Of a stretch of DNA of 64,000 bases, positions 7,572-52,812 are shown piece by piece. This stretch comes from a virus. Below the pieces are notes generated by a model. That model worked only from the letters and a program-made list of their open reading frames with translations, was not told where the DNA came from and searched no databases. The translations under genes were made by a program, and so were the position numbers. Location of the stretch: positions 83,062 through 147,061 of IMG/VR virus record IMGVR_UViG_3300033146_000946; one strand, 5' to 3'. The number at the start of each line of letters is the position of its first letter. Positions within the stretch are counted from its first letter, which is position 1.

Positions 7572-7733
7572 ATGAATTTAAGAAAATTAAAATATTTTGG
7601 CAATTTAATAAAAAATAGATTATATTTAAAGAATAAGATTTACTTCGAGTCTACAAAAACTCAACCATCTTTATTTTATAGAAAATGGTTAGAAGTAGAT
7701 TTATCAAACCAACAAGAACTTAATAACCTTTAA
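7572..7733 (+). CDS. 53-residue MNLR-type small protein
   Basis: Starts 1 nt after the preceding stop, with AGGAG upstream, and encodes 53 residues beginning MNLRKLKYFG. The same MNLR(K/R) opening occurs on about nine other small proteins of this window, here on the opposite strand and 30 kb from the main cluster. The body is basic with a short beta-prone stretch (KIYFES) and an acidic C-terminus. Function unknown. Confidence 0.6.
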   Translation: MNLRKLKYFGNLIKNRLYLKNKIYFESTKTQPSLFYRKWLEVDLSNQQELNNL

Positions 7734-12402: not shown

Positions 12403-12804
12403 TTATTTAATTTCTACTTTAGTTATATTATCATCATGTTCTTTATTAAATAATGTTATAGATAATATACCATCTTTAAATTCAGATTGAATAGAACTTA
12501 AATCATATTTATCAGATATATTAAATTCTAATCTATAAGATTTGGTGTTTTTATTTTTATCTGGTAAATCTATAACTATCATATTATTATTTTTTATAAC
12601 AAAAACCGATAATAAATCTTTATTAGCTCCAGCAAGATTAATTTTATAATTAATCTTATTATCTTGTTTATCATAATAAACAACATTAGTTTTATAATAT
12701 TTAATACCTTCTTGTGGTATTATACGTATTGTATTTTGTGTATCAGGTTTTTTATCATAGATGTTATAAACATCATTAATAAAATCATACATAGTTCTAA
12801 CCAT
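12403..12804 (-). CDS. Hsp20/alpha-crystallin small heat-shock protein
   Basis: 133 residues with an alpha-crystallin domain from about 48 to 125: YKINLAGANKD, NNNMIVIDL, SYRLEFNISDKYDL and the closing FKDGILSITLF, the usual DGxLxI(x)L signature. Small heat-shock proteins hold unfolding proteins; T4-like phages often carry one. GGAG lies 7 nt before the ATG. Its leader carries a small hairpin and a perfect palindrome. Confidence 0.85.
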   Translation of the reverse strand: MVRTMYDFINDVYNIYDKKPDTQNTIRIIPQEGIKYYKTNVVYYDKQDNKINYKINLAGANKDLLSVFVIKNNNMIVIDLPDKNKNTKSYRLEFNISDKYDLSSIQSEFKDGILSITLFNKEHDDNITKVEIK

Positions 12805-12925: not shown

Positions 12926-13747
12926 TTAATCTATATATGTTTTAACATAATACATTAAATTATTAATAAATTCATCATCTAAATTATAAATATATTTTAA
13001 TTCTTGTAAATCATAAGGTCTATCATACCCTATACCAAATCTCATTTTAATAATATTTAAATATTCTATAGGAATATATTTTAATTCATTTAATATATTT
13101 GTTTGAAATTCTAATAATGCAGCAAATGTATTATCATTAGATAAATCATCTATATTATTAGTTGTGAAACTTGAATCACTCATAGAGTTTAATTCTATTA
13201 ATGTTAATAATTGTATTATAATTTCTCTTTTTAATTCAATATTTCGATTTAATAATACATTTTGAATTTCTTCAACAGTAGGTTCAAAACCATTATTATT
13301 CATTGTCAATTCTTCTTTTATATCTGTTATATGTTTTATAAATCTAGCAATATTTCGATTAACTGATATAACTTTATTTTTCTTAATATAATCTATTAAA
13401 CATTTTTTAACATAATGATATGCGAATGTTGTAAAATTAACACCACGATAAACATCGAATCTATCTATTGCTTCTATTATACCCATTTGTGCTTGTTGAA
13501 ATAAATCATCAATAATATCACTATTATTTAATTTCTTACAATATGTTATTGCATATTTCATAGCAAAACCACCATTAGATAATATTAATATATTTCTCAA
13601 ATTATCATATTCTTCTTGATTATCTGGTAGATTTTCTCGCAATACATGCAATGTTTTAAATCTTTCTAAATTTTCATTTTTAGAAGGAAAAGGATATTTT
13701 TTAATATATCTATTTAATTGTATTTTTAATCGAACGAAACTATCCAT
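12926..13747 (-). CDS. phage RNA polymerase sigma factor (sigma70 family)
   Basis: 273 residues. Region 2 is clear at about residues 78-122: DDLFQQAQMGIIEAIDRFD then GVNFTTFAYHYVKKCL, the polymerase-binding and -10 recognition helices. Region 3-like helices follow (EELTMNNNGFEPTVEEIQ), and a reduced region 4 ends the protein (IIKMRFGIGYDRPYDLQELK). It should direct RNA polymerase to a phage promoter class, as T4 gp55 does for late genes. It overlaps the next gene by 1 nt. Confidence 0.85.
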   Translation of the reverse strand: MDSFVRLKIQLNRYIKKYPFPSKNENLERFKTLHVLRENLPDNQEEYDNLRNILILSNGGFAMKYAITYCKKLNNSDIIDDLFQQAQMGIIEAIDRFDVYRGVNFTTFAYHYVKKCLIDYIKKNKVISVNRNIARFIKHITDIKEELTMNNNGFEPTVEEIQNVLLNRNIELKREIIIQLLTLIELNSMSDSSFTTNNIDDLSNDNTFAALLEFQTNILNELKYIPIEYLNIIKMRFGIGYDRPYDLQELKYIYNLDDEFINNLMYYVKTYID

Positions 13748-18804: not shown

Positions 18805-19740
18805 TTAAATTGAACTAACTTCACAAGCTCCGCCTGAGCAAGCAAGTTCACCACTTAAATCGGTATTATCTTGTGTTTCAATTATATCATTAATATTAAA
18901 ATCCTTAATAGCATTATTTAATTTAGAAATTAAATCAGCATATTTAGCTTTTGATATATCTTCAAATGGCATTTGTGGATAAGTACCACCATCTAAAGGA
19001 AGAACTGAAATACCATGATAATGTTTTCTATTTTCCCACATCCAATTACCAACTTCTTCCCATTGATTTTTATCAATAGAAACAGTAACTGAAACATTAT
19101 GAGTATTAGCACCTTCTTTATGACCAGCTTTAATCCATTTATCGTGTACTAATTTAGTTCGTTCTAAAAGATCAATTGGACTTTCATTTCTAAAAATAGC
19201 ACCTTCAGGAGCAGCAATTGGTACTGTTAATACTGCTGTTGTATTAGGTGAGAAATAATCATCTTCTAAAAATTCTTTTGGAAGTAATTCAGAAAGATAT
19301 TTATAAATTGCTTCATCTTTATTAATTCGCATACGACGCACATAATAAGGAGCATGCCATGCATGTATACCAGATGAAGTTTTACCAACTAAACTAGCAG
19401 TTCCACTAGGTTTTACTGTTGTTATTCTTTTACCTGTATTAATACTAATTAATTCAGCAATTCTTTCATTTTCTTTTACAGCTTCTTTACCAGCTTCTTC
19501 CATATCTAATTTAAGTACATCACCAGAAGCAATACCTGTCATCGAAACACCTAATAAGGCATCATTATCAGCATTTTCTTTCCAATCAGATCTTAGATAA
19601 TGAAAGTTAGTATAACCAGCTTGCAATGTACCTAAAAATGCAGCAGCACGAGCTCTAGCATTATATTCTTCTTGAGAATCAATTCCAGATGCGATAATTT
19701 CTGTCAAATTACAATATCCTTTTGATTGTAAACTTATTTC
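18805..19740 (-). CDS. nrdJ: class II ribonucleotide reductase, exon 2 (C-terminal part)
   Basis: Exon 2 begins at 19740 with codons for EISLQSKGYCNLTEI, which continues the NPC motif at the end of exon 1. It encodes 311 residues: YNARARAAAFLGTLQ, the VKPSGTASLVG and HAWHAPYYVRRMRI substrate-site segments, LPLDGGTYPQMPFED, and a C-terminal Cys pair (ACSGGACEV) that can be the redox-active tail. Spliced, the protein is about 673 residues, near the size of monomeric adenosylcobalamin-dependent triphosphate reductases. A TTG inside the exon is not a real start. Confidence 0.85.
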   Translation of the reverse strand, partial: EISLQSKGYCNLTEIIASGIDSQEEYNARARAAAFLGTLQAGYTNFHYLRSDWKENADNDALLGVSMTGIASGDVLKLDMEEAGKEAVKENERIAELISINTGKRITTVKPSGTASLVGKTSSGIHAWHAPYYVRRMRINKDEAIYKYLSELLPKEFLEDDYFSPNTTAVLTVPIAAPEGAIFRNESPIDLLERTKLVHDKWIKAGHKEGANTHNVSVTVSIDKNQWEEVGNWMWENRKHYHGISVLPLDGGTYPQMPFEDISKAKYADLISKLNNAIKDFNINDIIETQDNTDLSGELACSGGACEVSSI

Positions 19741-20660
19741 CTATGAGCAGATAAACTAATATCTGACATTTCGACTATATCTTCAACTTTATATAACATA
19801 CATTTTGGTATATCAGATAAAAATGGTTTAATAAAATTATAAAAAAACTTTAAATCGTTTTCTTTACCTTTACATATAATAGATGTTCCATCTTCTCTAG
19901 CATCTATATCAAATGTTTTTAAAACATCAATAGCTTTTAATCTAAGTTTTTTATCACGTTTACAACATATTGAAATATTTTGATTATATGAACCATCATC
20001 TAAAAACCATAGTAACCAACCAAAATTGGTTAATTTAGTAATAGCTTCTAATTCAGATATAATATCTATATTTCCTAATGGTGTATAATAATCTCCATAA
20101 ATGTGACCTTGTTTATGTGTTCTTATATTAACAATTGAACTAGTTTTAGGATATGCTTTATTTAACATAGAAACTTTCCATTTTAAATATGGAATTTGTT
20201 TTTCTCCATGTATAATGCGTAATCCATGACTTTTCTTATTATAAGAACCATCTCCCAATAATTGAGAATAAATAATACTTCTATTATCTTCTCTAATAGG
20301 TACATAATTTGTATCTAATTTTTCACTTAAAATTTTTAATCTAGCTTTTTTAAAAGTAGATACTGAGAAATATCTATCAAATATACCTTTAGTTAAGTTA
20401 TTAGGTAAATTTAAAGTTTCAAAAAACATTTTACTATTTGATGATTCTAAAAGTATTTCAATTATTTCTTGTCTACTAGGAAATATATTTTTTATAATAT
20501 ATTCTCTTGGTGACATTTTAAAAATACTTTTAAATCTATTATAAATAGTTTTTTCACATACAGAATATTTATTTGTTAAATATTCTATTTTAGTAGCAAA
20601 ATAAGAATAGTCTTTCTTATTAATTGCTTCTTGTATAATTTTATTAAAATCATTTATCAT
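19734..20660 (-). CDS. LAGLIDADG homing endonuclease in the nrdJ intron
   Basis: 308 residues with two LAGLIDADG helices: IYSQLLGDGSY near 135 and WLLWFLDDGSY near 225, each with the catalytic acid. The N-terminus carries a helix-turn-helix-like stretch (TIYNRFKSIFKMSPREYI) that looks like the AraC DNA-binding half. The last codons run through the 3' part of the intron core and its stop lies 7 nt inside exon 2. It should cut intronless nrdJ alleles and drive intron spread. Confidence 0.85.
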   Translation of the reverse strand: MINDFNKIIQEAINKKDYSYFATKIEYLTNKYSVCEKTIYNRFKSIFKMSPREYIIKNIFPSRQEIIEILLESSNSKMFFETLNLPNNLTKGIFDRYFSVSTFKKARLKILSEKLDTNYVPIREDNRSIIYSQLLGDGSYNKKSHGLRIIHGEKQIPYLKWKVSMLNKAYPKTSSIVNIRTHKQGHIYGDYYTPLGNIDIISELEAITKLTNFGWLLWFLDDGSYNQNISICCKRDKKLRLKAIDVLKTFDIDAREDGTSIICKGKENDLKFFYNFIKPFLSDIPKCMLYKVEDIVEMSDISLSAHRK

Positions 20661-20832
20661 TTTTATACCTCACATTATTATATAAAGTGCTTCGCACTAT
20701 TAGTCTGTGAACCTTCCTAATTTATAATTAGGCTTGGCTGCTGATTGTCCAACGCTTTCGCTTTAACAGAGTCCCAGCAGTTCACGAAGTTTTTTAACTT
20801 AGATCACTCTAAGCAGCTGCCAAATAATTCAA
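19741..20832 (-). mobile_element. group I intron in nrdJ
   Basis: 1092 nt. The 5' exon ends GCTGT, which pairs with GCAGC about 12 nt into the intron and places the usual U-G wobble at the splice site. Core strands are recognisable on the minus strand: ATCAGCAGCCAAGCC (P/Q region), GGTTCACAGACTAAT (P7 side) and its partner ATTAGT near the 3' end; the intron ends in G. The homing endonuclease ORF fills a peripheral loop. Joining 20833 to 19740 restores one RNR frame through NPC-C-EISL. Confidence 0.85.
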
Positions 20833-21918
20833 ACAGCAAGGATTAGATCCTAATTCTTTATCATTAGTCCAATAAATACCAGGTTCACCAGCACCAGATG
20901 CTTTTACTTGTTTCCATATTTTATCAAATATATTTCTATCAACTTTATCATATTCAAGAACAATTGAATTATTTGCTCGACCTCTTTGTGGTTCAAAAAT
21001 ATACCAAGGTAATTTTTTTGATTCTTGATACTCAGTATATTGTGATTTAGAAATAAAAACTTCTTTTCTAACTCCATTATAAGAACCTTCAAGAATTACC
21101 ATGTCTCCTTCAAATCTAGGAGCCATAGTAGTTTCAAAATTAATATAACCTTTACAGTTTAACATTTCATTATCTTCAAGTGAAAATAAAGATATTAAAG
21201 CCGAACGTCTAATACCACCAGCTAATACTGCATCTGATATATAACATAATATGTCATGTACTTCTAACGGTGTTAAGTTAGTTTCACCTCGTGTTTCTAT
21301 AATTTTATCTAATTTTTCTGATACGATATCAATACATTCTTTTAATGGTTCTGGTCCAGGTGCTTTACCACCTGCTGTAACTAATTCAGTTCCTTTTGCT
21401 CTAATATCAGAATAATCAAAAACAATTCTTGATGAACCTTTAAAATATGATTTCATTAACATTTTAATTGACTCAGCCCAACCTTCTATTGAATCTCCAA
21501 TAAGATATCTTTTATGTTTTTTAGAAGATGGCGCTTTAACTGTAGGTAATTTTTCTACATGATGTTGTTGTACACTAAATCCAACACCAGATCCACCAAG
21601 TAAATTAAACATAGTTTCATTAAATACAGATGGATGATCAGCAGCAACATATGCACAATTATAAATTCGGTTTGGTGCTACTTCAATTGCTCTTCCAGCA
21701 AATTGTAAGCTTCTCATACTTGGAAATATTTTTTTTGGTATTACAAATTTTCCATATAATTCATATATTTCATCTGCAATATTAGGATATCGTTTTGCAT
21801 GCATATCAGCGTTTCTTTGACAAATCTCAATCCAGTTTTCTCGTCGTTGTAATGATTTATTATATTTAGCATATTTACTATAAATCACAATCTGTGATAA
21901 AAATTCTTTTGAATCCAT
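20833..21918 (-). CDS. nrdJ: class II ribonucleotide reductase, exon 1 (N-terminal part)
   Basis: 362 residues up to NPCC. Features: SMRSLQFAG, the first active-site Cys in NRIYNCAYVA near 85, LGGSGVGFSVQ near 107, RAKGTELVTAGGKAPGP near 190, AVLAGGIRRSALIS near 235, and EPGIYW near 345, in the order of RTPR/NrdJ enzymes. It makes deoxynucleotides from ribonucleotides using adenosylcobalamin, so it needs no NrdB; none is visible here. Without splicing the frame stops 8 codons later. GGAGG precedes the ATG. Confidence 0.88.
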
Positions 21919-26731: not shown

Positions 26732-29700
26732 TTATTCAAAATCATGATTAACTTTATCTAATTTAACTTTATCTGGAATATCATCTAAACCAATATCGAT
26801 AAATAAAGATTGTTGTTTAACACGAGAGATGTTAAATTTATTTAACATCTTATCTATTTGTTTATTATAATAACTAATATCTATTTCAGATATGTCCTTA
26901 GCTAATTTAATAAATTTATAATTTTCACCAGTTTTTTTCTCATAAAACTTTTTAAATTTTGGATCAGTTAAAGGTTTACACGTAATAATGTAAGGAATAG
27001 TTGTATCAACTGCAGGTTTAGAATGAGTAAGATGTTCATATTGAGCTGCTAAAAATGCAACTTGACCAGTTTTATCATCGTATTCATCTAAATCTTTATT
27101 TAATCTAATCCTATATTCAAAATCCTTTAATTCTAATCCAGTAAAATCATATGCTTCTCTAATAACTTCTTCCATTGGTTTATTATTAAACCAATATTCA
27201 ATAGCTAAATCACGAGCCCTATCTTGTACATAACAATTACGAGATGATTTTAATGAAGATCCATGTAAGTGAGTATGTCCTTCAATTTCAACAACATAAT
27301 TTTTCATAGCACAAAAATAAGCTGGTCCTACAATATCTAGTTCCATTTGCATATAATTTTCATCAATACCAAATTGATTAATCATTAATTGATCTAACCA
27401 TTTATTAGTTTCTTCTTCAGAAATCCATTTATCAATAGCAAGACCATCAGTATTATGTAAAACTATATTACCTAATGCTGTAACAAAAGTTCCATCATCA
27501 GTTGATATATCATAAACATATGTATCATTTTTATTAGATATTATTATATTATTTTTAATAACTAAACCATTAGAATAATCTTCATCATTATATCTAACAC
27601 ATCTATATGTATTACCATTATTAACTAAATATATTTTACAATCATTAAATATAAATTGTATACCAGCAGCTAATGTTTTAGATGAGGTATCAATATATCT
27701 ATTTTTACGCATACTATAAGGTTTAATTGCATACGTTGAATCAGCTAATAAACCACCAATAAATGCATCACCTTTTTCGACATTGTTTATAATATCAATA
27801 GGCACTTTACTATATCCATTTTTTGTATATAATTTTTTAATTAAAAACTCATATATTTTAAAACTATTTTTACCCCAAGGTATAAGTTCATAATGATTTC
27901 TAAATTCTGTTGTTCTAAATCTACATTCAAATTTTGAACCAATATATAAATTTAGTAATTTAACAATGTTTGTTTTTATATGTTTATATTTTTTACTTAA
28001 AATTAATTTTGTTTTTAAAGTTCTAAATCTAGTTTTATATGTATCTATTTTAATATTATTAAGTAAAAATCCATATAACCATGCTAATTCATTATTTATA
28101 AAATTATTATTTGGTATATAAAAATAATCAGTTAATTCAATATGACTTTTATTTACGATAATATCTTTTGGTGTTAATTCTTCTTCATTATTATTAAATA
28201 AAGAATGATCTTCTGTTATATCAACAAAACCATTTTTTATTCTAGTTCTATATATATTTTTTGATACTTCATGTCGTTTCGTATAATTAATATCAGCCCA
28301 ACCATGTCTAGTTAAAGCTTTAATAGGTTCAACTACTTCATAATTTTTAGCATCACCTCTATGTATATCTTCAATAGGAATTATATCTACCATATTCATA
28401 AATTTATTTTTAACCCAAATAGGAGTATCACCAGTTACACTATCGAGTTCTACTAATTCATCTTCGTATTTAACAATAGTTTTACCAGTAGTATATCTAC
28501 ACATTGCTGTAATAGTTGCACCAGTTATAGTATCACCATATGTTGAACTTTTTAAACCTTGAATACCATAAATAGAATTCAAAATAATTTTAATAGCAAG
28601 CTGTTGAGAATCAAGCATAGGAACTAATTCAGGATTAGTTTTAGCTGCTTCTTTCATCTCTTTTTTAATAGCTTTACGTTCAGCCCAAAGCATCTTAATT
28701 TCTTTTTTAAGAATACCTTCAATATCATTTCTAACACGAACTACGAGATCTACACCAAAGTTTTTATCTGGAAATGAATGCCAATCATATTTAGCAGTCT
28801 TTTTAAATTTGTATTTACCAGTATAAGGTCTAACTTCAATTAATTTAGTTGTATCAGGTCCTAAATTAAAAGTACATATAGCAGAAGGATACATAGATGT
28901 AAAGTCAAGTTTATATGTATCTTCAAATTTACCATATTTATATAAACCAACGAGTGCACCTTGATATTTTAATTCTTTATTATCATATTTTCTAAATTGA
29001 TATCTAGTACCAGTTCTAGAATTATATTTACTAAAATTAGTTTCAGTAGATATAAGTTTATTTTTATAAAAGTTACGAGCTAAAAATATTTTAGGTATAA
29101 AAGATGGATAACTATTCATAGTATCATTTAAAGATACTTGAACTTTTTCAGCAAGTGTTATATCATTTCTAATATAAACAGCACCTACATGTTCAGTTCT
29201 AATAACATCTGCTTTTTGATATGACCATAATAAATCTGGATTTTCAGTTCTAACTTTTTCAGTATTTCTAATAGCATCTTCAAGTTCAACATCAGCATCT
29301 TTATCAAGTGGTACTTTATAATGTCGTGCTAATGTTTTTAATGATTTATTTTTAAGACCATATAATGATTGATCTTTAAGAACTTTAAGATACATATCAT
29401 AATGTATTCTACCATTAATAAATATTTGACCTCTGTCATTTATAAATGGAGATTTATTTTCTCGAGCAAAACCTTGCATAGATACTTTTCTAATTTTACA
29501 TCGATTATAAAAATAAGGAAAGTCAAATATTTCTGAGTTATATCCAGCTAATATATCAACATCCCATTTTCTCATAGCTTCTACAAAATCTTGTAGAATA
29601 AATAAATCTGTTTTATCTTCGTCATAATTATTAAGTAATGTATAATTTAACTTTTCCTTTGATCCATCAGGATGATAATCCCAAATAGAAAATCCTATAC

Positions 29701-30124
29701 AAATAATAGGTTGTTTTTCTGGTTTTGGGAATACATCATCACCAACAGTTCTAGTCTCAATATCCCAGAACATTATTCTAATTTTTTCTTCATGAGGAAA
29801 TTTTAAAATAAAATCTGGATCACTAATATATAATTGTTCGACATAACTATTATTATAAATTTGATTTATTTTATCTTTATGTCTATCAAGAAATTCTCGT
29901 TGTTGAGCCGTATCATTAAATACGACTCTTTTATAATTAGTTAATTCATCATCTGGGATTTTAGTCCATTTTTCAATAGCTTTATTTGAGACAGAAACTT
30001 CTGGAAAAGCTGACTCTTCCAGAAGATTAAAAGGTTTAAAAGGAAAATTTGTATATACAAATTTATTATTATGAAAGATCCTCAGATTCGTTTTCGTTGC
30101 TTTCAACAGTAGCGGTACTTTCAT
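26732..30124 (-). CDS. family B DNA polymerase containing an intein
   Basis: 1130 residues before splicing, about 800 after. Exonuclease motifs: FWDIETR (Asp121, Glu123), GYNSEIFDFPYF near 195. Polymerase motif A DFTSMYPSAI near 408 and motif B KIILNSIYG near 512. Motif C is split: Asp561 precedes the intein and Thr892-Asp893 follow, so DTD exists only after splicing. ATG at 30124 follows GAGGAAG and overlaps the previous gene by 56 nt. It is the replicative polymerase with proofreading. Confidence 0.92.
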   Translation of the reverse strand: MKVPLLLKATKTNLRIFHNNKFVYTNFPFKPFNLLEESAFPEVSVSNKAIEKWTKIPDDELTNYKRVVFNDTAQQREFLDRHKDKINQIYNNSYVEQLYISDPDFILKFPHEEKIRIMFWDIETRTVGDDVFPKPEKQPIICIGFSIWDYHPDGSKEKLNYTLLNNYDEDKTDLFILQDFVEAMRKWDVDILAGYNSEIFDFPYFYNRCKIRKVSMQGFARENKSPFINDRGQIFINGRIHYDMYLKVLKDQSLYGLKNKSLKTLARHYKVPLDKDADVELEDAIRNTEKVRTENPDLLWSYQKADVIRTEHVGAVYIRNDITLAEKVQVSLNDTMNSYPSFIPKIFLARNFYKNKLISTETNFSKYNSRTGTRYQFRKYDNKELKYQGALVGLYKYGKFEDTYKLDFTSMYPSAICTFNLGPDTTKLIEVRPYTGKYKFKKTAKYDWHSFPDKNFGVDLVVRVRNDIEGILKKEIKMLWAERKAIKKEMKEAAKTNPELVPMLDSQQLAIKIILNSIYGIQGLKSSTYGDTITGATITAMCRYTTGKTIVKYEDELVELDSVTGDTPIWVKNKFMNMVDIIPIEDIHRGDAKNYEVVEPIKALTRHGWADINYTKRHEVSKNIYRTRIKNGFVDITEDHSLFNNNEEELTPKDIIVNKSHIELTDYFYIPNNNFINNELAWLYGFLLNNIKIDTYKTRFRTLKTKLILSKKYKHIKTNIVKLLNLYIGSKFECRFRTTEFRNHYELIPWGKNSFKIYEFLIKKLYTKNGYSKVPIDIINNVEKGDAFIGGLLADSTYAIKPYSMRKNRYIDTSSKTLAAGIQFIFNDCKIYLVNNGNTYRCVRYNDEDYSNGLVIKNNIIISNKNDTYVYDISTDDGTFVTALGNIVLHNTDGLAIDKWISEEETNKWLDQLMINQFGIDENYMQMELDIVGPAYFCAMKNYVVEIEGHTHLHGSSLKSSRNCYVQDRARDLAIEYWFNNKPMEEVIREAYDFTGLELKDFEYRIRLNKDLDEYDDKTGQVAFLAAQYEHLTHSKPAVDTTIPYIITCKPLTDPKFKKFYEKKTGENYKFIKLAKDISEIDISYYNKQIDKMLNKFNISRVKQQSLFIDIGLDDIPDKVKLDKVNHDFE
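27452..28441 (-). mobile_element. intein in DNA polymerase motif C
   Basis: Residues 562-891 (330 aa). Block A is SVTGDTPIWV with Ser as first residue; block B is ITEDHSLF; blocks F and G are STDDGTFVTALGNIVLHN, ending His-Asn before the +1 Thr. A LAGLIDADG-type insert is visible: WLYGFLLNN lacks the catalytic acid while AFIGGLLADS keeps one Asp, so the endonuclease looks partly decayed while splicing residues are intact. Confidence 0.88.
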
Positions 30125-31310: not shown

Positions 31311-31832
31311 CTATTTAATGATATGTAATCTTTCAAAACTAAGAGTTTCTCTTAGTTCTTCAATCATATCATTTATATATACATTATTTTTATATAAAGT
31401 ATTCTCTTTATCTATCATTAATTTAATAATATTAACTAAATGTATTACAACACCTTCTGTCAATATTAAATCATTAATATCAGATTTAGCATGAGTAACT
31501 GTTATATAATATAGTATATATAAAATTGAATCAATTTTCAAGTTATTTTCATAATTATTCGATATTATATATTTTATAATAGAATTATAGATATAACTGT
31601 AAGGTAAAGCATTTACGATTTTTGATTTATTATTAATTTTAGATTTTAATAAACATATTTTATTATCATCTATTAAAATATTAAAATTATTATTATTTAA
31701 TTCAGTAGAATATGTAGATAGAATCAAATCTAAATCAATATCATTAATAATAGTTATCCCAGAATTTTTTAAAAAAATTGATCTAGGATAACCATAATCT
31801 GCTATAAAATCAATTAATGAACTAATGTTCAT
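31311..31832 (-). CDS. unknown helical protein downstream of the ubiquitin-like gene
   Basis: 173 residues, Ile/Asn-rich and mostly helical. It begins 2 nt after the ubiquitin-like gene, with which it is probably cotranslated, so it is a candidate partner. No cysteine, hence not an E2-type carrier. No family recognised. Confidence 0.5.
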   Translation of the reverse strand: MNISSLIDFIADYGYPRSIFLKNSGITIINDIDLDLILSTYSTELNNNNFNILIDDNKICLLKSKINNKSKIVNALPYSYIYNSIIKYIISNNYENNLKIDSILYILYYITVTHAKSDINDLILTEGVVIHLVNIIKLMIDKENTLYKNNVYINDMIEELRETLSFERLHIIK

Positions 31833-31834
31833 TA

Positions 31835-32053
31835 TTAACCACCAATTAATTGATTCATAATAGTAATAGTTTTTGCATCCTGAAGTTCATCTTCTAATAC
31901 AAAATCTTTCATATAAGGTGAACCATTAATATAAATTGTCTTATTATTTCTTTTTTCAGAATTAATAAAATCAATTGCTTCTTTTAAATCGTAATCTTTT
32001 ACAACTGGGCCATTTGTATCAATCATTTCGATTGTAATTTTTTTGTTACTCAT
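31835..32053 (-). CDS. ubiquitin-like (ThiS/MoaD-type) beta-grasp protein ending in Gly-Gly
   Basis: 72 residues. The predicted order is two strands (KKITIEMI, GPVVKDY), one helix (LKEAIDFINSEKRNN), a strand with the typical YINGSPYM phrase, and a last strand running into TITIMNQLIGG. Small size, beta-grasp order and exact C-terminal diglycine are what E1/ThiF enzymes adenylate. It overlaps the GroES stop by 1 nt and lies in the same operon as an E1-like gene. It may be a sulfur carrier or a protein tag. Confidence 0.65.
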   Translation of the reverse strand: MSNKKITIEMIDTNGPVVKDYDLKEAIDFINSEKRNNKTIYINGSPYMKDFVLEDELQDAKTITIMNQLIGG

Positions 32054-32334
32054 TATTCATCTCCTAATATAATTAAAATGTCAGACTCATCCATTATTAA
32101 ATATTTTTTATCTCTTAATTCAATTTCAGTTCCAGCATACTTCCCATGTAATACTGTATCACCTATTACTGCGGTCATATCATAATCAGATGTACCTGGA
32201 CCAGTAGCAATCACTTTTGCTAATTGTGGTCTATCTTGAGCTTGATCTGGAATATAAATTCCACCTTTAGTAATTGTTTCTTTTTCGATAGGTTCTAATA
32301 AAATTTTAGAACCTAATAATGTTACATTTTTCAT
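32053..32334 (-). CDS. groES: GroES co-chaperonin
   Basis: 93 residues, full length for the family. Motifs: LLGSKILLEPIEKETITKGG with the mobile loop GGIYIPD, PQLAKVIATGPGT, GDTVLHGKYAGTEI and the closing KKYLIMDESDILIIL. It should cap host GroEL, as T4 gp31 does for capsid folding. It lies 3 nt after the 767-residue gene and overlaps the ubiquitin-like gene. Confidence 0.93.
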   Translation of the reverse strand: MKNVTLLGSKILLEPIEKETITKGGIYIPDQAQDRPQLAKVIATGPGTSDYDMTAVIGDTVLHGKYAGTEIELRDKKYLIMDESDILIILGDE

Positions 32335-32337
32335 AAA

Positions 32338-34641
32338 TTAACCTTTATTTAATTCATCTTCTAAATTATAAATTGAACTAGCAATTACACTATCATTTTT
32401 AAGTGAAAGAAGTTTAGATACAACTGTATCATAACCAACCGTTGATTTCATTTTTGATTGATCAATCATACATATATATGTACCATTAATATATATTTCT
32501 TTATCTGTTTCAGCAACAATATTATCTAATTCTGGATTCATAAAAACAAATGATTCTTTTAAATTATATGCTATAACATAATTTTTACCAGATAATCCTG
32601 TAACTTTAATACCATCATATTCAACTTTATTTTGTTTATCAAAATATTTCACATAATTACAATCTAAATCTTCAACTTTTTTAGTTAAAAATTCTTTCGA
32701 TTTATCAATATATAATTGATATGATTTATCAATCATAATTTTATATTTAATATAATCAAATTTAGTTTCACATGATTTAAATACATGATTATTAATATAT
32801 TCCATATTGCTAATTGATGATCTGTAACTACTATCTCTAGTTTTTAATATACAAATATTATATAATGTATTAAATACTTTTTTGCCTTTAATTTTAATAT
32901 CAACACCATCAATATTCATTTCATATATATTTGTTTTATCAGTTGTTTTAAATTTAAAATAATTTTTATCTATAAAATAACCTGAACTTAAACCAATAAA
33001 TACTGACAAACCTTTTTTTGTAATATTATCAATGAATAATTGAGCAGATGCTTGTGAATTATAACATGACATTTCTTTTAATACATTTATAATTTCATTT
33101 TTATTAATTCGTTTTTCATTAATATATGTAAAATTACTACCATTCTTATATAATTCAATTTTAATATTTACTGTATTATTAAACTCAATAAATATATCAC
33201 GTGATTCTTTAGTATAAGTAATTACCGATTCCAGATGATTAAATATTTTTCTAGTTAATTGTTCAATTATTTCATCTTCATTTGTTTGTTTTCTAAAATA
33301 TAATACCATATATTCATTTGCTAATGTATATAATCTTTCTTTTAATGATTCATCATTAAATTGAATAGCAAAATCGTTATATGAAATTTTACCTTTTTCA
33401 TGTTCATATAAAATATCATCTGTAATTTTAACATCATCACCAGTTGATTTTTGTTTTTTAATTACATATAAATATTCATTAGATAAATTCTTTAAACCTT
33501 TTAAAACATCTTTAAAAGTATGTTTATATTTATGTGAAGGTAAATATGTGCTTAAACGTAATGTTTTATCTGAACCTTCAAAATATAAATTATCTATTTT
33601 AATATTTTCACTCAAAATTTTATTTAGAGATTTATCTATAACTTCTTCGATATCAAAAGTATGAACTTTTGGATCAGATGTAATAGTAGTAAATTGAAAT
33701 TTACTACCATCACCAAATGAAATTATATATCTACCTTCATCTAAATAATTAAAAGGTACACCTCTAAAAAGAACATTAACATAATTAATAGAATTTAACA
33801 TAATAAAATCATTAGCATTATGATATAAGTCCATTGTATCAGAACTATTATTAGTTGCTTTATCAGAATGTACAGATTTAACAATACGTTCAGAATCAGG
33901 ATCTTTAAAATATGATGTTACCATACAATATCTTTTATTTTCAATATTAAATATTTTATCTATTTTAGATATTATTAATATATTATCAGTTCTATAAGAA
34001 TCAGTAGAAGGATTATTTAAATTAATATCTATAAATTCTAATGGATTTACAAATGATAATTTTAATTTTTTCGCAGTATTATTAAATTTTTTAATAATAT
34101 TATTTTTAATTTCAAGTTCTTTATTAAAAGTAAATTTAGCTAAATTTGTTAAAGTATCATTACTTATAATATCATCATTATATTTATCCATTAAGTCTTT
34201 AAGTTCATATACTTTTTGTTTATTAATTTTATAACTTAAAGTTGTTTTAGTAATCATTAATGTTACTATTTCATTTATAGTTAATGGTGAATTTTCTGAT
34301 ATTTCTGTAATAAATTCATATAAATTTTCAGTTGATGTTTGTTCTAATTTATAATTAAATCCAGTATCAATAGCTTTAGTTTTTTCAATAATAAATCCGA
34401 AATTATATGAATAAGTATCTTCTGTATATGATATAATTAAAATTAAATAACTTTTCTTTTTTATATCAATTGAAAATAAACTAAAACCATTTCTGGTATT
34501 TAATATATCTGATATATCATTAGTAAATTTTTCTACTACATCATAATTATTTTTAACTTCATCTAAATTTAAATAATTAAAAAATAATAGATCAAAAAAT
34601 TCTTTATCTGAATTTTGTCCAGACGTACTAAATGTTTTCAT
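32338..34641 (-). CDS. large unknown protein between E1-like and GroES genes
   Basis: 767 residues with no recognised domain. It is alpha/beta, Lys/Asp/Asn-rich, soluble and without transmembrane segments. Several strand-rich stretches occur (GVPFNYLDEGRYIISFGDG near 285, KTTDKTNIYEMNIDGVDIKIKG near 560, GIKVTGLSGKNYVIAYN near 690). No JAB, HECT, RING or Walker motif was found. Position between E1-like, GroES and ubiquitin-like genes makes it a candidate partner or target. Confidence 0.6.
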   Translation of the reverse strand: MKTFSTSGQNSDKEFFDLLFFNYLNLDEVKNNYDVVEKFTNDISDILNTRNGFSLFSIDIKKKSYLILIISYTEDTYSYNFGFIIEKTKAIDTGFNYKLEQTSTENLYEFITEISENSPLTINEIVTLMITKTTLSYKINKQKVYELKDLMDKYNDDIISNDTLTNLAKFTFNKELEIKNNIIKKFNNTAKKLKLSFVNPLEFIDINLNNPSTDSYRTDNILIISKIDKIFNIENKRYCMVTSYFKDPDSERIVKSVHSDKATNNSSDTMDLYHNANDFIMLNSINYVNVLFRGVPFNYLDEGRYIISFGDGSKFQFTTITSDPKVHTFDIEEVIDKSLNKILSENIKIDNLYFEGSDKTLRLSTYLPSHKYKHTFKDVLKGLKNLSNEYLYVIKKQKSTGDDVKITDDILYEHEKGKISYNDFAIQFNDESLKERLYTLANEYMVLYFRKQTNEDEIIEQLTRKIFNHLESVITYTKESRDIFIEFNNTVNIKIELYKNGSNFTYINEKRINKNEIINVLKEMSCYNSQASAQLFIDNITKKGLSVFIGLSSGYFIDKNYFKFKTTDKTNIYEMNIDGVDIKIKGKKVFNTLYNICILKTRDSSYRSSISNMEYINNHVFKSCETKFDYIKYKIMIDKSYQLYIDKSKEFLTKKVEDLDCNYVKYFDKQNKVEYDGIKVTGLSGKNYVIAYNLKESFVFMNPELDNIVAETDKEIYINGTYICMIDQSKMKSTVGYDTVVSKLLSLKNDSVIASSIYNLEDELNKG

Positions 34642-34653
34642 TTTTTTATCCTT

Positions 34654-35226
34654 TTAAAATATATGATTTAATTCTGTTGGTAAAATATTTTTTCTACTGT
34701 ATGTTAATAGAGCTTGTGCTAAAATTTGAGCAATAATTCTATTGCCTAATTCAATTTCATTTTTTTCTAATTGATAAGGAAATTGACAACTGAAACTTTC
34801 AGTAGAATCATCGATTGTATTTAGATAATCATTTGTATCTGAACTAAATAAACCAACTGCTCTACCATTAGATCTAGAGTCAATAAATGGAATATTATTT
34901 TCCTTATAATTTTTGAAAACTTCTCTTCTAATAATATTATTATCAGCACAAATAAGAATTAAATTATATTCTTGTAAGTCAGAATAATTAACTCGTTTTA
35001 CTTCATATTCCAAGTTAAAATATCTTTCTTCTAATGCTTCTACTTTATAAGAATCAATATCACTAGATTCGAAATTTTGATATCTAATATTTTTCATTTC
35101 AACATTATCATCATCGACAGCAATAAACTCCCAATCTGATTCAAATTGATCATTATCTATTAGATTATCAAGTGTTTCTATAAAATAAGAACCGATACCA
35201 CCAGCTCCTATAATTAATACTTTCAT
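34654..35226 (-). CDS. minimal E1-like adenylyltransferase (ThiF/MoeB family)
   Basis: 190 residues. Rossmann nucleotide loop GAGGIGS at 7-13, VDDDNVEMKNIRYQNF with Asp38-40 and the Asn-x-Arg-x-Gln pattern at 46-50, Lys61, and ILICADNNIIRR with Asp95-Asn96, all landmark positions of ThiF/E1. There is a single Cys near the end (Cys147, SFSCQFP) that could form the thioester. It lacks the rhodanese or UFD parts, so it is a bare activating domain. Confidence 0.72.
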   Translation of the reverse strand: MKVLIIGAGGIGSYFIETLDNLIDNDQFESDWEFIAVDDDNVEMKNIRYQNFESSDIDSYKVEALEERYFNLEYEVKRVNYSDLQEYNLILICADNNIIRREVFKNYKENNIPFIDSRSNGRAVGLFSSDTNDYLNTIDDSTESFSCQFPYQLEKNEIELGNRIIAQILAQALLTYSRKNILPTELNHIF

Positions 35227-45359: not shown

Positions 45360-45560
45360 TTAACCAAGCTCATTATAAACTGGATCGGGATTCTCATAAA
45401 GATATCTTTCAGCAGTATCTTCTGTATGTTCAACAGTTCCAAGTGCCATTTCGATATCTTTAATGATATCACAACCTTCACCAATAAATCCACTTGTTTC
45501 AAAAGACATTACACCTGAACCATCTTTTTTAATTTTGATTTTTACTACTTCTTCTGCCAT
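45360..45560 (-). CDS. DUF2997 family protein
   Basis: 66 residues with the family layout KIKIKKDGSGVMSFETSGFIGEGC, then a C-terminal ALGTVEHTED...NPDPVYNELG. DUF2997 genes commonly sit beside Ycf35 (DUF1257) and Ycf46-type AAA ATPases, as here. Biochemical role unknown. Confidence 0.7.
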   Translation of the reverse strand: MAEEVVKIKIKKDGSGVMSFETSGFIGEGCDIIKDIEMALGTVEHTEDTAERYLYENPDPVYNELG

Positions 45561-45699
45561 TTTGACTTTCTCCTATTTTATTTTCAAAAATAAATTTTGT
45601 AATTTGTATTTGTTGAATTCTAATAATAATAATTAAATATGTATTAAATATTATTAATCCTAATATTAGAGCTAATAATATTATTATATACATATACAT
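45529..45699 (-). CDS. small single-span membrane protein
   Basis: 56 residues from ATG 45699, just after the DUF1257 stop; an upstream extension to 45747 lies inside that gene. Residues 3-28 are a hydrophobic helix (YIIILLALILGLIIFNTYLI) followed by a basic, polar tail. It overlaps the DUF2997 start. Function unknown; may anchor the trio at the membrane. Confidence 0.5.
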   Translation of the reverse strand: MYMYIIILLALILGLIIFNTYLIIIIRIQQIQITKFIFENKIGESQNGRRSSKNQN

Positions 45700-45700
45700 T

Positions 45701-46114
45701 TTAAGACCATCTTGTAAATGTATATTCAACTTCACCAGATGTATCATTAACTTCAGGATTCATTGTAAATCCTAGAGCCATGAGTCTATCATTAACTTCT
45801 TCTTTTTTAGCTTCTACTGTAAGAGTATTAGTAAGTTCTTGTGCACTAAGTCCACGAGCAAAATAATAATCTCCTGTACAAGTATATGTACCATCTTCTT
45901 GTTCTTGAATACCAATTTCGTCATTAGTATTATGACCATTAGGAAGTTCAGTAATTAAAATATCAACAGCACTTTTAGTAGATCCATAATATCCACGAGT
46001 TGTGAGTTTTTTACCTTCTTCTGCAACTTGAAATTTATATCCAAGATTTTTCAATGCTTTAATAATATATTCTTTATTATTAAGTTTTGTTTTAACGTCA
46101 GTTTTGTGGCTCAT
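45701..46114 (-). CDS. DUF1257 (Ycf35-like) protein
   Basis: 137 residues. SHKTDVKTKLNNKEYIIKALKNLGY and TRGYYGSTKSAVDILI near 40, then DGTYTCTGDYYFA and a C-terminal LGFTMNPEVNDTSGEVEYTF match the Ycf35/DUF1257 family known from plastids, cyanobacteria and phages. Function unknown. It is 15 nt downstream of a Ycf46-type ATPase. Confidence 0.75.
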   Translation of the reverse strand: MSHKTDVKTKLNNKEYIIKALKNLGYKFQVAEEGKKLTTRGYYGSTKSAVDILITELPNGHNTNDEIGIQEQEDGTYTCTGDYYFARGLSAQELTNTLTVEAKKEEVNDRLMALGFTMNPEVNDTSGEVEYTFTRWS

Positions 46115-46129
46115 ACCATTCTCCTTCTA

Positions 46130-47869
46130 TTAATCGAAATCTACTTCGAGATTTTTTAAATTAATTTTTTTAGATTTATTTTTTCTTTTAGTTTTTACTT
46201 CAATTGGTTTTTTAGATACATTAACAGCATTATCTTTTGCCCATTTACGCATATTTTGAATATGTTTATCACCAACTTTTACAATTGGTACAACATCTTT
46301 CAATCTTTCAGCAATTGCTTTTGTTGTTATATCAGATTTTGAATTAATCTTTACAATTTTTTTAGATTTACCATTTAATTGTTTAGCAAGATTATATTGA
46401 ATTGCTTCTTTAATAGCATGTTCAATTTCAGCACCTGTATAATCATATATACCACCATTTGAATCAGTATGTCTAATTTCAGCTAGTTCATCTAGATCAA
46501 ACTTTTCAGAATTTCTTCCACGTTTTTCTAAATGAATTTTAAAAATTTCTTTTCTTTCTTCTTTAGAAGGAATATCTGAGAAAAATATATTATCAAATCT
46601 ACCCTTTCTAAGAAGCTCAGGGTGGCTATTTCTAATAGCAGTGATATCATTAGCTGTCGCAATGATAAATACGCCAGGATGAGGCTCCTGCATCCATGTA
46701 AGAAGCGTTCCAATAACACGTTTTGTTGTACCACCATCTGTTTTATCAGAACTACCAGCACCAGCCAAAGATTTATCAAGCTCATCAATAATAACAATAC
46801 CACCAGCTGCTTCTGCTTGTGCTAATGCAAGTCTCATTCTTTTTTCAGATTCACCAACAAGACCAGCAAATACTTTACCTGTATCAAATTTAATTACAGA
46901 CATACCTGATTCTTTAGCCGCTGCTTTAGCAATTGCTGTTTTACCTGAACCTTGAACTCCAAGTAGCATACAACCTTTTGGATGTTCAGCTTTAAAATCA
47001 TTAGCAATTTCAGGATTATCCATAATAGCTTTTTGAACTGTAAACCATTCTTTAAAGTTTTCAAAACCACCTACAGTGTTCAATCCACCTTCACATGGCC
47101 AAAATTCAAGAATATCATTTTTATTAATAATATTTTTCTTTTCTTGAATGATAACATCTTCATCCAAACGTTTCTTTGTTTGTAGAGAATAATTACAAGC
47201 GTTAAAGATTTCATCTTCTGTCAAACCCATACAAGCATTTGCAATTTTATTTAGATCAAAATCAGTATCGATTTTATCTTCATCATTCACAGTTTCTTTA
47301 TTATGAAGTTTCATTAAAGCTGCAATATTTTTAGTAATAATATCATCTTTAATTTCTTCTCGAGTTGGAAGACCAAGTTCAATATATGCTGAATCTTTTT
47401 CAAGTTCAGTTGGTACTTTTAATGCTGGTCCAGAAATAAGTATAGGTGAACCTGCAGTAGCAGCTAAATATACAATATCTCTAATTTTTCTAATAACCAT
47501 AGGATTATTAAAAAACTTATCAGCATCTCTTAAAATATATATATTTCTTTTAAAATCTTCAAAATCATCAGTTAGTTTTGTTTGACAATCATGTTCAATT
47601 ATATCTAATGCTGTAAGAATATTACCGACAGATGATGCACCTTTAACTGTTTTTCTAGCTGAATCAGAATTATAATTATGTGGAGTAACATCTTTATCAT
47701 TATCAGATAATTGATGTAATCCTTGTGTTGCTGACCAGAATTCTACTTTATCATCTTTAAAATTCTTTTTAAGTTCACGGATAAGTTTTGTTTCTTCAAA
47801 AGTATTAACAAATACTAATCCACTATTTGATTCTATTCTATCAAATAGTTCTTGGTAACTGATATGCAT
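46130..47869 (-). CDS. AAA+ ATPase (Ycf46-like)
   Basis: 579 residues. The N-terminal 250 residues form a non-catalytic region typical of Ycf46; then Walker A LGVQGSGKTA near 307, Walker B IVIIDELDKS near 360, sensor GVFIIATANDITAIRNSHPELLRKGRFD with arginine finger, and a Lys-rich C-terminus. Ycf46 in chloroplasts and cyanobacteria is of uncertain function. In this operon it is followed by DUF1257, a membrane protein and DUF2997. Confidence 0.85.
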   Translation of the reverse strand: MHISYQELFDRIESNSGLVFVNTFEETKLIRELKKNFKDDKVEFWSATQGLHQLSDNDKDVTPHNYNSDSARKTVKGASSVGNILTALDIIEHDCQTKLTDDFEDFKRNIYILRDADKFFNNPMVIRKIRDIVYLAATAGSPILISGPALKVPTELEKDSAYIELGLPTREEIKDDIITKNIAALMKLHNKETVNDEDKIDTDFDLNKIANACMGLTEDEIFNACNYSLQTKKRLDEDVIIQEKKNIINKNDILEFWPCEGGLNTVGGFENFKEWFTVQKAIMDNPEIANDFKAEHPKGCMLLGVQGSGKTAIAKAAAKESGMSVIKFDTGKVFAGLVGESEKRMRLALAQAEAAGGIVIIDELDKSLAGAGSSDKTDGGTTKRVIGTLLTWMQEPHPGVFIIATANDITAIRNSHPELLRKGRFDNIFFSDIPSKEERKEIFKIHLEKRGRNSEKFDLDELAEIRHTDSNGGIYDYTGAEIEHAIKEAIQYNLAKQLNGKSKKIVKINSKSDITTKAIAERLKDVVPIVKVGDKHIQNMRKWAKDNAVNVSKKPIEVKTKRKNKSKKINLKNLEVDFD

Positions 47870-50407: not shown

Positions 50408-50842
50408 CTAAAATGGTAGATCTGAAGCTGATAAATTATTAGTTGATTGAGATTGTTCTGGTTCCTGTTGTCTAACAGAATCTATACCTTTTGATATAGG
50501 TGTTATTCCAGATACAATAATATTTGTATAATATTTATCTGTTTTTTTATCTTTAGTTCTGGATTCATATCCTTCAATTTCAACTATTGTTCCAAGTTGT
50601 ATAGTATTTTTTAAATCATCAACTGCTTGTTGTGTTTTTGCAAATACTGTACATCTTTCAAATAATCTCATTTTAGATTCAGCTGAATCTTTAACTTTTG
50701 TTTCAACATTAAATGATATAATGTATGAACTAAAATCAGAATCAGATTTAGGTGGAATAACTCGTAAAATTTCATCTGAATCATTACTGTTATATTTATA
50801 AAATGGTATAACAGTAGCATTAGTAAGTGTTACTTTTTTCAT
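50408..50842 (-). CDS. ssb: single-stranded DNA-binding protein
   Basis: 144 residues with an OB-fold core (VTLTNATVIPFYKYN, SSYIISFNVETKVK, ERCTVFAKTQQAVDDLK, GTIVEIEGYESRTKDKKTDKYYTNIIVSGI), a flexible Gln/Ser linker and the acidic tip SASDLPF. The C-terminal D-x-P-F-type tip is how bacterial-type SSBs recruit partners. It protects ssDNA at the fork. Overlaps the Clp-like gene by 1 nt. Confidence 0.8.
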   Translation of the reverse strand: MKKVTLTNATVIPFYKYNSNDSDEILRVIPPKSDSDFSSYIISFNVETKVKDSAESKMRLFERCTVFAKTQQAVDDLKNTIQLGTIVEIEGYESRTKDKKTDKYYTNIIVSGITPISKGIDSVRQQEPEQSQSTNNLSASDLPF

Positions 50843-52812
50843 TAACTTTCCTCTTTCTTTGTTTGATTGAAAATCATTTTAGGTACAATTGATGTTAAAT
50901 TAGTTATAACATCTGATCCATTTTTACTATTTTTTAATACTTCGCTTTTTAATTCTTTTTTATCAATATTAACATCTGAATATACATTTAATACATTATC
51001 AATATTTTTATTAAAGATTTCTTCTAAATCTTTTTTAGATAAATCATTAAATTTAATAATAGAATCAACTGAATTTAAAATAGTTTTATTTATTACTTGT
51101 TCTAAATTAGAAGTTGATGTAGAATCAGAACCAAAACCAAAACCCATAGCTTTAGTATTAATTGCTTTATTTTCATTTTCTTCTAATGATACAGAAAAAA
51201 TAATAATTGTATTATTTAAACTAACTTCTCTTTCAGCACTATCAATCATTTTACCATTTTTAATACTAGTAAGAAGATATTCAGATATAGATTGGTGACA
51301 TTTATTAATATGTCTCAAGTATAAAATACTTTGTGGATTATTTCTTAAATCTTTAATAAGTTTACCAGACTTTTGATAACCAACATATCCTGGAGGTGCA
51401 CCTTTAAGTTCTGTTAATTGGAACTCTTGAGTATATTGAGCTAAATCATATTCAATAATATTATCTTGTGTACCATAAAGACTTTCTGATAATAATTGAA
51501 CAGATTTAGTTTTACCTACTCCATGACTACCAACTAATAATAAAATACTAATTGGTCTTGTTCTTACAGAATTGATATGTTGCATTATATTACTAACATT
51601 TGCTAATTCTGTTACTGGATCATTTTGATTAACAATTTCTTCGTTCATTTTATCAACAATAGCTTTATAATTCAAACTATTTTTAATATAATTATAATCA
51701 ATATTTCCGATATCAGATATAGCTAAATCAATATGTCTTTTAGTTAAAGTTCTTTTACCTGAAACAGTTTTAGTAGTTTTAATAATATTAATATCTTTAT
51801 CAATATGTAAAAAATCTTTATTACTACTATCATCATATTCATCATGAATATCTTTAATATTCATAATAGAACAAGACTTATCAAGTATATCAAATGACTT
51901 ATCTGGATTCTTTCTATGTCCAAGAAATCTAGATCCATTTTCAACAAGATATTCACATATTTCTTTATTAATAGAACAATTATGATAATCTTCAAAAACA
52001 CTTTTAGTATTATATACCATTTTAATTGTTTCATCAATAGATGGTTCATTAATATTAACTAATGTAAATCTACGTTCTATTGCTTTATCTTCAGTTATAA
52101 TATTATGATATTCATCTACAGTAGTAGCACCAATAAATCTAATTGTACCTGTAAGATATGGTTTAAGAATATCATTAAATTTTTCATTAAGAAGTTGATG
52201 TACTTCGTCAATAAAAAGAATATGTTTTGGATCTTCAGAAGCTTTTTCAAGAATATCTACAATTTTACTAATTGGATCTTCTTTATAATGAGTGAAGAGA
52301 TATGGAATATCTAAATGATGTAGTTTAGCATTTTTAAGTGGAAATGGAACTGTTCCATTTATTAATCTAGTATTAATTTCATTAACAATAGCTGTTTTAC
52401 CAGTACCTGCTTCACCAACTATAATAACACCACGTTTATTTTTTCTAGCTAATGTTATTAGAATTTGTTCAACTTCTTTATCTCGACCAGTTATAATATT
52501 ACCACTATTATAACTTAATTTTTTACAAGCATTAAATTCTTTATAATTTCTTGTAATAGGTGAAAATGAAACTATATTAGTAGTATTCTTTTTAGATATA
52601 TCTTTAAGAATTGTAATAAGATCATCAGTTTTTTTATAAATTCCATCAGGTATTTGAGATATTAATTTCTCATAATTTTTGATATTATATTTTTTTGGTG
52701 TTTTACTTTTTCTTTTAAGTAATTCATAATTTTCTTCTGATGAAAAAATATCATCAGTTTTGTTAGCCAATTTTTTTAATTGGTTTTTAATACTATTAGA
52801 AAGTATCAACAT
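50842..52812 (-). CDS. ClpA/ClpB-like double AAA+ ATPase
   Basis: 656 residues. First module: GRDKEVEQIL, Walker A GEAGTGKT near 135, Walker B LFIDEVHQLL near 195 and arginine finger ERRF. Second module: Walker A GSHGVGKTKS near 428 and the GAPPGYVGYQKSGKL loop near 465, MGFGFGS at the end. The second Walker B, LYLRHINKCH, lacks the Asp-Glu. It may unfold host or phage proteins, or have become an adaptor or decoy. Confidence 0.82.
   Translation of the reverse strand: MLILSNSIKNQLKKLANKTDDIFSSEENYELLKRKSKTPKKYNIKNYEKLISQIPDGIYKKTDDLITILKDISKKNTTNIVSFSPITRNYKEFNACKKLSYNSGNIITGRDKEVEQILITLARKNKRGVIIVGEAGTGKTAIVNEINTRLINGTVPFPLKNAKLHHLDIPYLFTHYKEDPISKIVDILEKASEDPKHILFIDEVHQLLNEKFNDILKPYLTGTIRFIGATTVDEYHNIITEDKAIERRFTLVNINEPSIDETIKMVYNTKSVFEDYHNCSINKEICEYLVENGSRFLGHRKNPDKSFDILDKSCSIMNIKDIHDEYDDSSNKDFLHIDKDINIIKTTKTVSGKRTLTKRHIDLAISDIGNIDYNYIKNSLNYKAIVDKMNEEIVNQNDPVTELANVSNIMQHINSVRTRPISILLLVGSHGVGKTKSVQLLSESLYGTQDNIIEYDLAQYTQEFQLTELKGAPPGYVGYQKSGKLIKDLRNNPQSILYLRHINKCHQSISEYLLTSIKNGKMIDSAEREVSLNNTIIIFSVSLEENENKAINTKAMGFGFGSDSTSTSNLEQVINKTILNSVDSIIKFNDLSKKDLEEIFNKNIDNVLNVYSDVNIDKKELKSEVLKNSKNGSDVITNLTSIVPKMIFNQTKKEES

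Follow-up and report, generated by a model that had tools for sequence, protein, structure and literature searches.

A candidate ubiquitin-like protein-tagging cassette in a tailed phage and its relatives among bacterial and archaeal viruses

The stretch of DNA described here (the window) is the final 64 kb, positions 83062-147061, of the linear, 147,061-base IMG/VR virus record IMGVR_UViG_3300033146_000946. The source virus is a large tailed phage, with terminase, tail, and baseplate-like genes, identified from their sequences, within the record's first 80 kb, and the window also encodes a RecA-like recombinase. A minus-strand operon in the window encodes an E1-like activating enzyme and a ubiquitin-like protein (Ubl) ending in Gly-Gly. 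Together with a dedicated partner protein, they belong to a cassette conserved in viruses of bacteria and archaea, which is proposed to tag proteins in a ubiquitin-like fashion.

The operon, its E1-like enzyme, and its Ubl

In operon order, the E1 gene (34654..35226, 190 amino acids) is followed after 12 bp by the gene for P767 (32338..34641), a protein of no known fold, and after a further 3 bp by a GroES co-chaperonin gene (32053..32334; Pfam Cpn10, 2.2e-22). The latter overlaps by 1 bp the Ubl gene (31835..32053, 72 amino acids), which is separated by 2 bp from a gene for a 173-amino-acid protein (31311..31832), all five being on the minus strand. A first-pass annotation of the window had called the E1 and Ubl reading frames and placed P767 and GroES between them; both frames were recovered at the same positions, and the intervening genes do lie in the same tight operon. 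P767, the Ubl, and the 173-amino-acid protein have no convincing family match in Pfam or PHROGs.

The activating enzyme has the ThiF fold, matching Pfam ThiF at 2.9e-11, and a hidden Markov model (HMM) of 15 bacteriophage E1s, built without the window, matches it at 1.1e-45. All 53 non-redundant relatives keep residues G7, G9, G10, D38, D40, N46, Q50, K61, D95, and C147, and with them the glycine loop (GAGGIGS in the window), Lys61, Asp95, and Cys147 that the first-pass annotation had singled out. That annotation had named relatives without conserved ATP-site residues as evidence against its proposal, and none of the 53 is of this kind. The N-x-R-x-Q stretch that it also listed is literally present (N46-I-R48-Y-Q50), with N46 and Q50 invariant, but R48 is not conserved. 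The Arg of canonical ThiF and MoeB proteins corresponds to position 49, which is Tyr in the window and in 38 of the 53 relatives and Arg in 12. The ATP-site Arg of the canonical N-x-x-R-Q motif is thus absent from the window E1, and the other ATP-site features of E1 and ThiF proteins are present (Rossmann GxGGxG loop, DxD, N..Q, Lys, and Asp). Cys147 (codon 34786..34788, minus strand) lies in an S-C-Q motif and is the candidate thioester or persulfide cysteine, its position seeming to fit the catalytic Cys region of ThiF. Profiles of three E1s, searched against the PDB, matched a ThiF-type protein (9egc) and Cap2 of the cyclic-oligonucleotide-based antiphage signaling system (CBASS).

The Ubl ends in MNQLIGG with nothing after Gly71-Gly72 (codons 31838..31843, minus strand). 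It is matched at 2.7e-9 by an HMM of bacteriophage Ubls built without the window, and can therefore be taken as the product of a real gene. The Gly-Gly end noticed in the first-pass annotation is kept by its homologues, being found in all 53 unique Ubl sequences and invariant in a 41-sequence alignment. Twenty of the 53 end exactly there, whereas 33 carry 1-8 residues beyond it, often two (as in GGCY or GGNQ): one residue in five sequences, two in 25, and three, four, and eight in one each. An AlphaFold model of the window Ubl from 41 sequences (mean predicted local distance difference test score, pLDDT, 84.4) has the order beta-beta-alpha-beta-beta-beta, or EEHEE(H)E. In the PDB, Foldseek matches it almost exclusively to SUMO, ubiquitin, ISG15, and the ubiquitin of the archaeon Caldiarchaeum (E from 1.2e-3, probability 0.97-1.0), so the beta-grasp fold first read from the order of its residues is also the predicted one. 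Homology to the Ubls of crAss-like phages was not detected by profile comparison.

The cassette in bacteriophages and archaeal viruses

Scans of virus contigs with single window proteins (E1, Ubl, or RecA) returned no relatives, and tblastn of the Ubl and P767 against GenBank phages gave no matches. The terminase-based relatives, L007-L011, are short fragments without an E1, and six diverse phage E1s, once aligned, differed too much to serve as a search query. Two loci, L018 and L019, were found by aligning the window E1 to the ThiF protein of Acinetobacter phage ME3 for the query; their E1 is 39% identical to that of the window. The gene order in L018 is a 773-amino-acid P767 homologue, an 82-amino-acid protein ending in LINSLVGG, a JAB (JAMM) isopeptidase (HTHPGLSIPIPSHTD), and the E1. 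The same four genes occur in L033, found by a scan with the C-terminal part of P767/P773. A three-sequence E1 alignment gave 93 virus relatives, of which 80 were kept, plus 14 bacterial or archaeal contigs. In 75 loci a small protein was matched by an HMM of three Ubls, and each of these proteins carries GG at its C-terminus or close to it; a JAB HMM matched 86 loci.

The bacteriophage relatives (group A) comprise 15 non-redundant loci, one per contig, each of which has the Ubl, the JAB, the E1, and a homologue of P767 (the P7 family, here of 690-792 residues) in close proximity, with a sigma-70 gene following 0.8-2.6 kb downstream. Homology between these loci and the window cassette is shown by HMMs built without the window, which match its E1, P767, Ubl, and sigma gene, the last a sigma-70-like gene at 12926-13747 matched at 2.3e-18 by the group A model.

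The second group (group B) consists of 62 loci with conserved neighbours, named from their sequences: E1 in 62, JAB in 61, a 283-amino-acid TFB in 57, a protein of about 417 amino acids in 55, the Ubl in 49, GroEL in 40, a GroES-like protein in 33, and a clamp-loader small subunit in 18. TFB, RFC-S, GroEL, and GroES are all listed for Aoguangviridae/Magrovirales (PMC10768690), and this matching gene content assigns group B to the magroviruses, which are marine archaeal viruses. One of its loci, L114, sits on a contig of a Poseidoniales metagenome-assembled genome. Most group B loci have the Ubl family of group A, and the cassette neighbourhood is conserved, with replication and transcription genes. 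In the E1 tree, groups A and B and the window are united at 98/96 support. This clan is sister to the E1s of phages ME3 and Arash and of loci L024 and L025, and stands apart from crAss-like and MoeB/ThiF-like E1s. Within it the window E1 joins group A weakly (92/53) on a long branch (end branch 1.42, median 0.26).

JAB genes lie close by in all 15 group A loci and 61 of the 62 in group B, and the HxH..S..D motif is present in 42 of 44 non-redundant JABs. The best curated match of the L033 JAB is the desampylase NF041370 (52 bits, below the cut-off), and its top PHROG is a tail protein (1.1e-11). Prok-JAB was matched in nine of ten records searched, the window record being the exception. The first-pass annotation had also seen no JAB; this holds for the window phage, but in every bacteriophage relative with the whole cassette the enzyme is present together with the E1 and the GG-ending Ubl. 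The 173-amino-acid protein next to the window Ubl stands at the place of the relatives' JAB, and a JAB fold had been suggested as something to look for in it. It has no JAMM motif and no match to the JAB family HMM even unfiltered, and was rejected as a JAB.

GroES was considered as a further cassette member. A search of eight bacteriophage relatives did not find its gene, and it is therefore probably a local insertion in the window operon; yet magroviruses keep GroES-like and GroEL genes nearby, in many loci close to the JAB.

P767 was known from the first-pass annotation as a gene between the E1 and the Ubl, which it is, but its conservation across the cassette went beyond what could be seen there. 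The finding as a whole is larger than was then apparent: P7 is conserved, JAB is the usual companion, and archaeal viruses share the set. P767 aligns with the 773-amino-acid protein of L018 by BLAST (27.5% over residues 502-760, E=6.5e-9), and a P7 family HMM built without the window matches it at 9.7e-12. A scan with P7 alone, independent of the E1, gave 25 loci, every one on an E1-bearing contig, so that P7 occurs only with this system in these data. Four of the loci were new (L136, L138, L140, and L150), and all four have E1, Ubl, and JAB. In L138, a 268-amino-acid open reading frame (ORF) at 7819-8625 lies between the Ubl and the JAB, an insertion within the cassette.

One C-terminal Cys is invariant in 16 P7 sequences, C664 in L033 and C724 in the window (codon 32470..32472, minus strand, in G-T-Y-I-C-M-I-D). 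It sits in the motif G-x-Y-I-C-I-V-D-K-S (G-T-Y-I-C-M-I-D-Q-S in the window), followed by V-G-x-D and N-D. P7 aligns by profile with the archaeal-virus family of about 417 amino acids (94.9%, E=1e-8), and an equivalent Cys is seen in all 37 non-redundant homologues of that family listed. The three significant BFVD matches of the P7 model are nameless proteins of 416-452 amino acids, which probably belong to the same family. The model of the L033 P7 has a mean pLDDT of 78 and a predicted template modelling score of 0.49, the latter leaving its overall fold unsure. P7 was also considered as an E2, a fold that the first-pass annotation had wished to see searched for in the 767-residue protein, given the resemblance of 'YPSGxYICIVDKS' to the E2 stretch 'YPSGTVCLSIL' and a modelled helix - four strands - Cys - helix. 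This was rejected, as the best Foldseek match in the PDB has E 0.039 and probability 0.08, a profile search of the PDB gave no match, and the profile comparison with phage E2_D gave a probability of 0.4%.

Tagging and its alternatives

The preferred reading, held at a probability of roughly 0.6, is that of a virus-encoded ubiquitin-like protein-tagging cassette that works without an E2, as SAMP and TtuB do, and has a new dedicated partner, in viruses of bacteria and archaea. The E1 would use ATP to adenylate the Ubl at its C-terminal Gly-Gly and would then hold it as a thioester on Cys147. From there the Ubl would reach its protein targets with no classical E2 involved, by direct transfer, as in archaeal SAMPylation and Thermus TtuB, or by way of P7. 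The JAB isopeptidase of nearly all relatives would remove the tag, and would mature the Ubl where residues trail the GG. In the window phage, the Ubl is made already mature and, with no recognisable JAB, tagging may be irreversible or depend on a host JAMM protease.

A thioester role for P7 is possible, since its invariant Cys belongs to a protein found only with the E1 and the Ubl. More tentatively, P7 and its archaeal counterpart might be a new Ubl-transfer enzyme, unlike E2 and the known E3s, which would hold the Ubl on the C-terminal Cys and deliver it to targets, perhaps including transcription or replication proteins of the virus; a full tagging pathway would then have evolved in viruses and be common to bacteriophages and archaeal viruses. 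In both groups an initiation factor encoded by the virus itself is next to the cassette, TFB in 57 of 62 group B loci and sigma-70 in 15 of 15 in group A, and an archaeal TBP carries a ubiquitin-like isopeptide modification (PMC4895103). The initiation factor as a tagging target is only a lead, because synteny among related viruses could explain the adjacency and because, in the window, about 18 kb separate the sigma and Ubl genes.

Several points weigh against tagging. Conjugation to proteins is inferred from genes and models, and the Foldseek template modelling scores of the Ubl are modest, about 0.42-0.53. The window E1 and P767 are strongly diverged, and even the unfiltered JAB family HMM found no JAB in the 147-kb record, an absence that is not proof, as the record is a linear fragment and perhaps incomplete. 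Searches for an E2 with UQ_con and Prok-E2_D found none, but no control genome was positive, so this absence is not decisive either. Finally, E1-only Ubls such as TtuB, SAMP2, and Urm1 double as sulfur carriers, and tagging is therefore not the sole possible chemistry.

This last point leads to the main rival, itself unlikely, in which the Ubl is a carrier of sulfur or of a small molecule. The adenylated Ubl would be turned into a thiocarboxylate or receive another group, P7 would use it on a tRNA, nucleotide, or metabolite, and JAB would trim the tail or release the product, much as QbsD trims the tail of QbsE and Mec+ releases the product from CysO. Carriers of the ThiS/MoaD type have the same fold and GG end, the E2-less TtuB and SAMP2 do both jobs, P7 is a large conserved protein of no recognised fold, and the 33 Ubls with residues after GG, many of them in group B, would need trimming. 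In group A, however, 14 of the 15 Ubls end exactly in GG and yet all 15 loci keep a JAB, which is thus unneeded for maturation and should act after conjugation, suggesting deconjugation. Moreover, 10 virus records yielded no rhodanese or ATP_bind_3 (NcsA/TtuA-type) gene in a search in which 13-14 of 14 control genomes were positive and which did not extend to MnmA, MoaE, ThiG, or cysteine desulfurase. The first-pass annotation had already preferred tagging over cofactor synthesis, and the JAB of the relatives and the missing rhodanese and ATP_bind_3 genes strengthen that preference.

It is improbable that the cassette serves counter-defence, in which the virus Ubl, E1, and JAB would act as decoy substrate, competitor, or deconjugase and so disturb antiviral systems of the host that use Ubls (CBASS type II, Bil). 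The E1s and the L033 JAB do weakly match PADLOC E1-E2 and JAB models, and CBASS Cap2 is among the nearest solved E1s by profile, but the E1 retains all catalytic residues and the genes lie in a conserved replication and transcription neighbourhood, outside any variable accessory region, in archaeal viruses too. Least probable of all is decay in the window phage, with JAB already lost, E1 and P767 diverged, and the Ubl retained by chance, which would suit the lack of JAB in 147 kb and the long E1 branch but not the retention of the invariant E1 residues, the Ubl GG, and C724 of P767 in three intact frames of one tight operon.

Other genes of the phage and relation to known systems

Besides the cassette, the window holds several further features. 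A B-family DNA polymerase (PolB) ORF (26732-30124, minus strand) has an insertion of about 300 residues, a putative intein with an endonuclease, and a ribonucleotide reductase gene (18805-21918, minus strand) is split into two ORFs with a 308-amino-acid homing-endonuclease-like ORF between them, in an intron-like arrangement. At 45360-47869 (minus strand) are found a DUF2997 protein (Pfam, 2.1e-8), a 137-amino-acid DUF1257/Ycf35-like protein (recognised by eye only), and a Ycf46-like AAA ATPase (Pfam AAA, 2.1e-23), a set resembling a cyanobacterial and plastid trio, here in a phage. A ClpA/ClpB-like AAA+ protein (50842-52812, minus strand) and an Hsp20 (12403-12804, minus strand) make, with GroES, an unusual protein-quality-control set. 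The sequence MNLR (ATG-Asn-Leu-Arg) occurs at 62846, 62584, 44472, 40835, 40521, 39880, and 37736 on the minus strand and at 7572 on the plus strand. Most of these eight positions are starts of otherwise dissimilar small ORFs, several of them reading MNLRxIKY, and the record's first 80 kb contains no such start. Could MNLR be a common N-terminal tag or a start-site element?

Among known systems, those of archaeal SAMP/HvJAMM1 and Thermus TtuB have a GG-ending Ubl, a single E1, and a JAMM isopeptidase with no E2. The bacteriophage relatives share the first three, the JAMM protein being absent from the window record, and the E2 searches had no positive control. Here, in contrast, the genes form a compact cassette in a virus genome with the dedicated P7 partner, and the E1s examined are short (185-202 amino acids), far below the UbaA cut-off, and mostly have Tyr at the canonical Arg position. 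Tagging of proteins by SAMP is covalent (PMC4443979, PMC4895103). The ThiS-ThiF and MoaD-MoeB pairs share the fold of both partners and the GG end; against these stand the lack of detected pathway genes (rhodanese and ATP_bind_3 being those searched), the JAB near the relatives' genes, and E1 scores far below the ThiF/MoeB cut-offs.

Bacterial operons with E1, JAB, Ubl, and E2, and the lambda tail Ubl and JAB, were described by Iyer et al. 2006 (PMC1779556). The PRTRC (Iyer type 6d) clusters and their phage versions in ME3, Arash, crAss-like phages, L024, and L025 likewise bring E1, JAB, and Ubl together. Of the NCBIfam models, PRTRC_ThiF ranks first or second for both bacteriophage E1s tested, with 37.3 bits for the window E1 and 58 bits for that of L033 against a cut-off of 144.75. 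These clusters have an E2-like protein (a weak Prok-E2_D match in Arash and L024), whereas none was found in the present cassette, by searches that had no positive control, and P7 has no detectable homology to the E2-like proteins. Distinct clusters of E1 and JAB occur in phages ME3 (L013) and Arash (L015), crAss-like L014 and L016, and L024 and L025, and some of these clusters include Ubl- and E2-like proteins; at 1125-1856, L025 has 'FPNIYVDGTVCLG', and ME3 has an annotated PRTRC protein A.

CBASS type II Cap2/Cap3 and Bil also combine E1 chemistry with a JAB isopeptidase in prokaryotes (for CBASS, PMC10097602). They are, however, bacterial defence operons with an E2, no CD-NTase was seen with the present cassette, and PADLOC CBASS and Bil models match the window E1 only weakly in the E1 domain (4.6e-5 or worse). 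The lambda tail assembly proteins I and K (TAPI Ubl) are another case of a phage Ubl with a JAB (PMC1779556), but the lambda-type tail cluster is described without an E1, and the present cassette lies beside replication and transcription genes rather than tail genes. Borg elements carry deSAMPylases (PMC12660748), and a jumbo-phage survey (PMC7824862) makes no mention of E1-like, JAB, Ubl, or ThiF proteins. No description of a phage or archaeal-virus Ubl system was found in the literature, magrovirus papers included (Philosof 2017 and Zhou 2023 lay outside the search).

The complete set is found in tailed bacterial viruses and in abundant marine archaeal viruses as a small, conserved cassette of three or four genes. 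Most of what is known of ubiquitin-like systems in prokaryotes concerns cellular regulation or anti-phage defence. If the cassette does tag proteins, its viruses would resemble those of eukaryotes in turning ubiquitin-like modification to their own ends, here in bacteria and archaea, and P7 would represent a novel kind of partner, whether enzyme or target.

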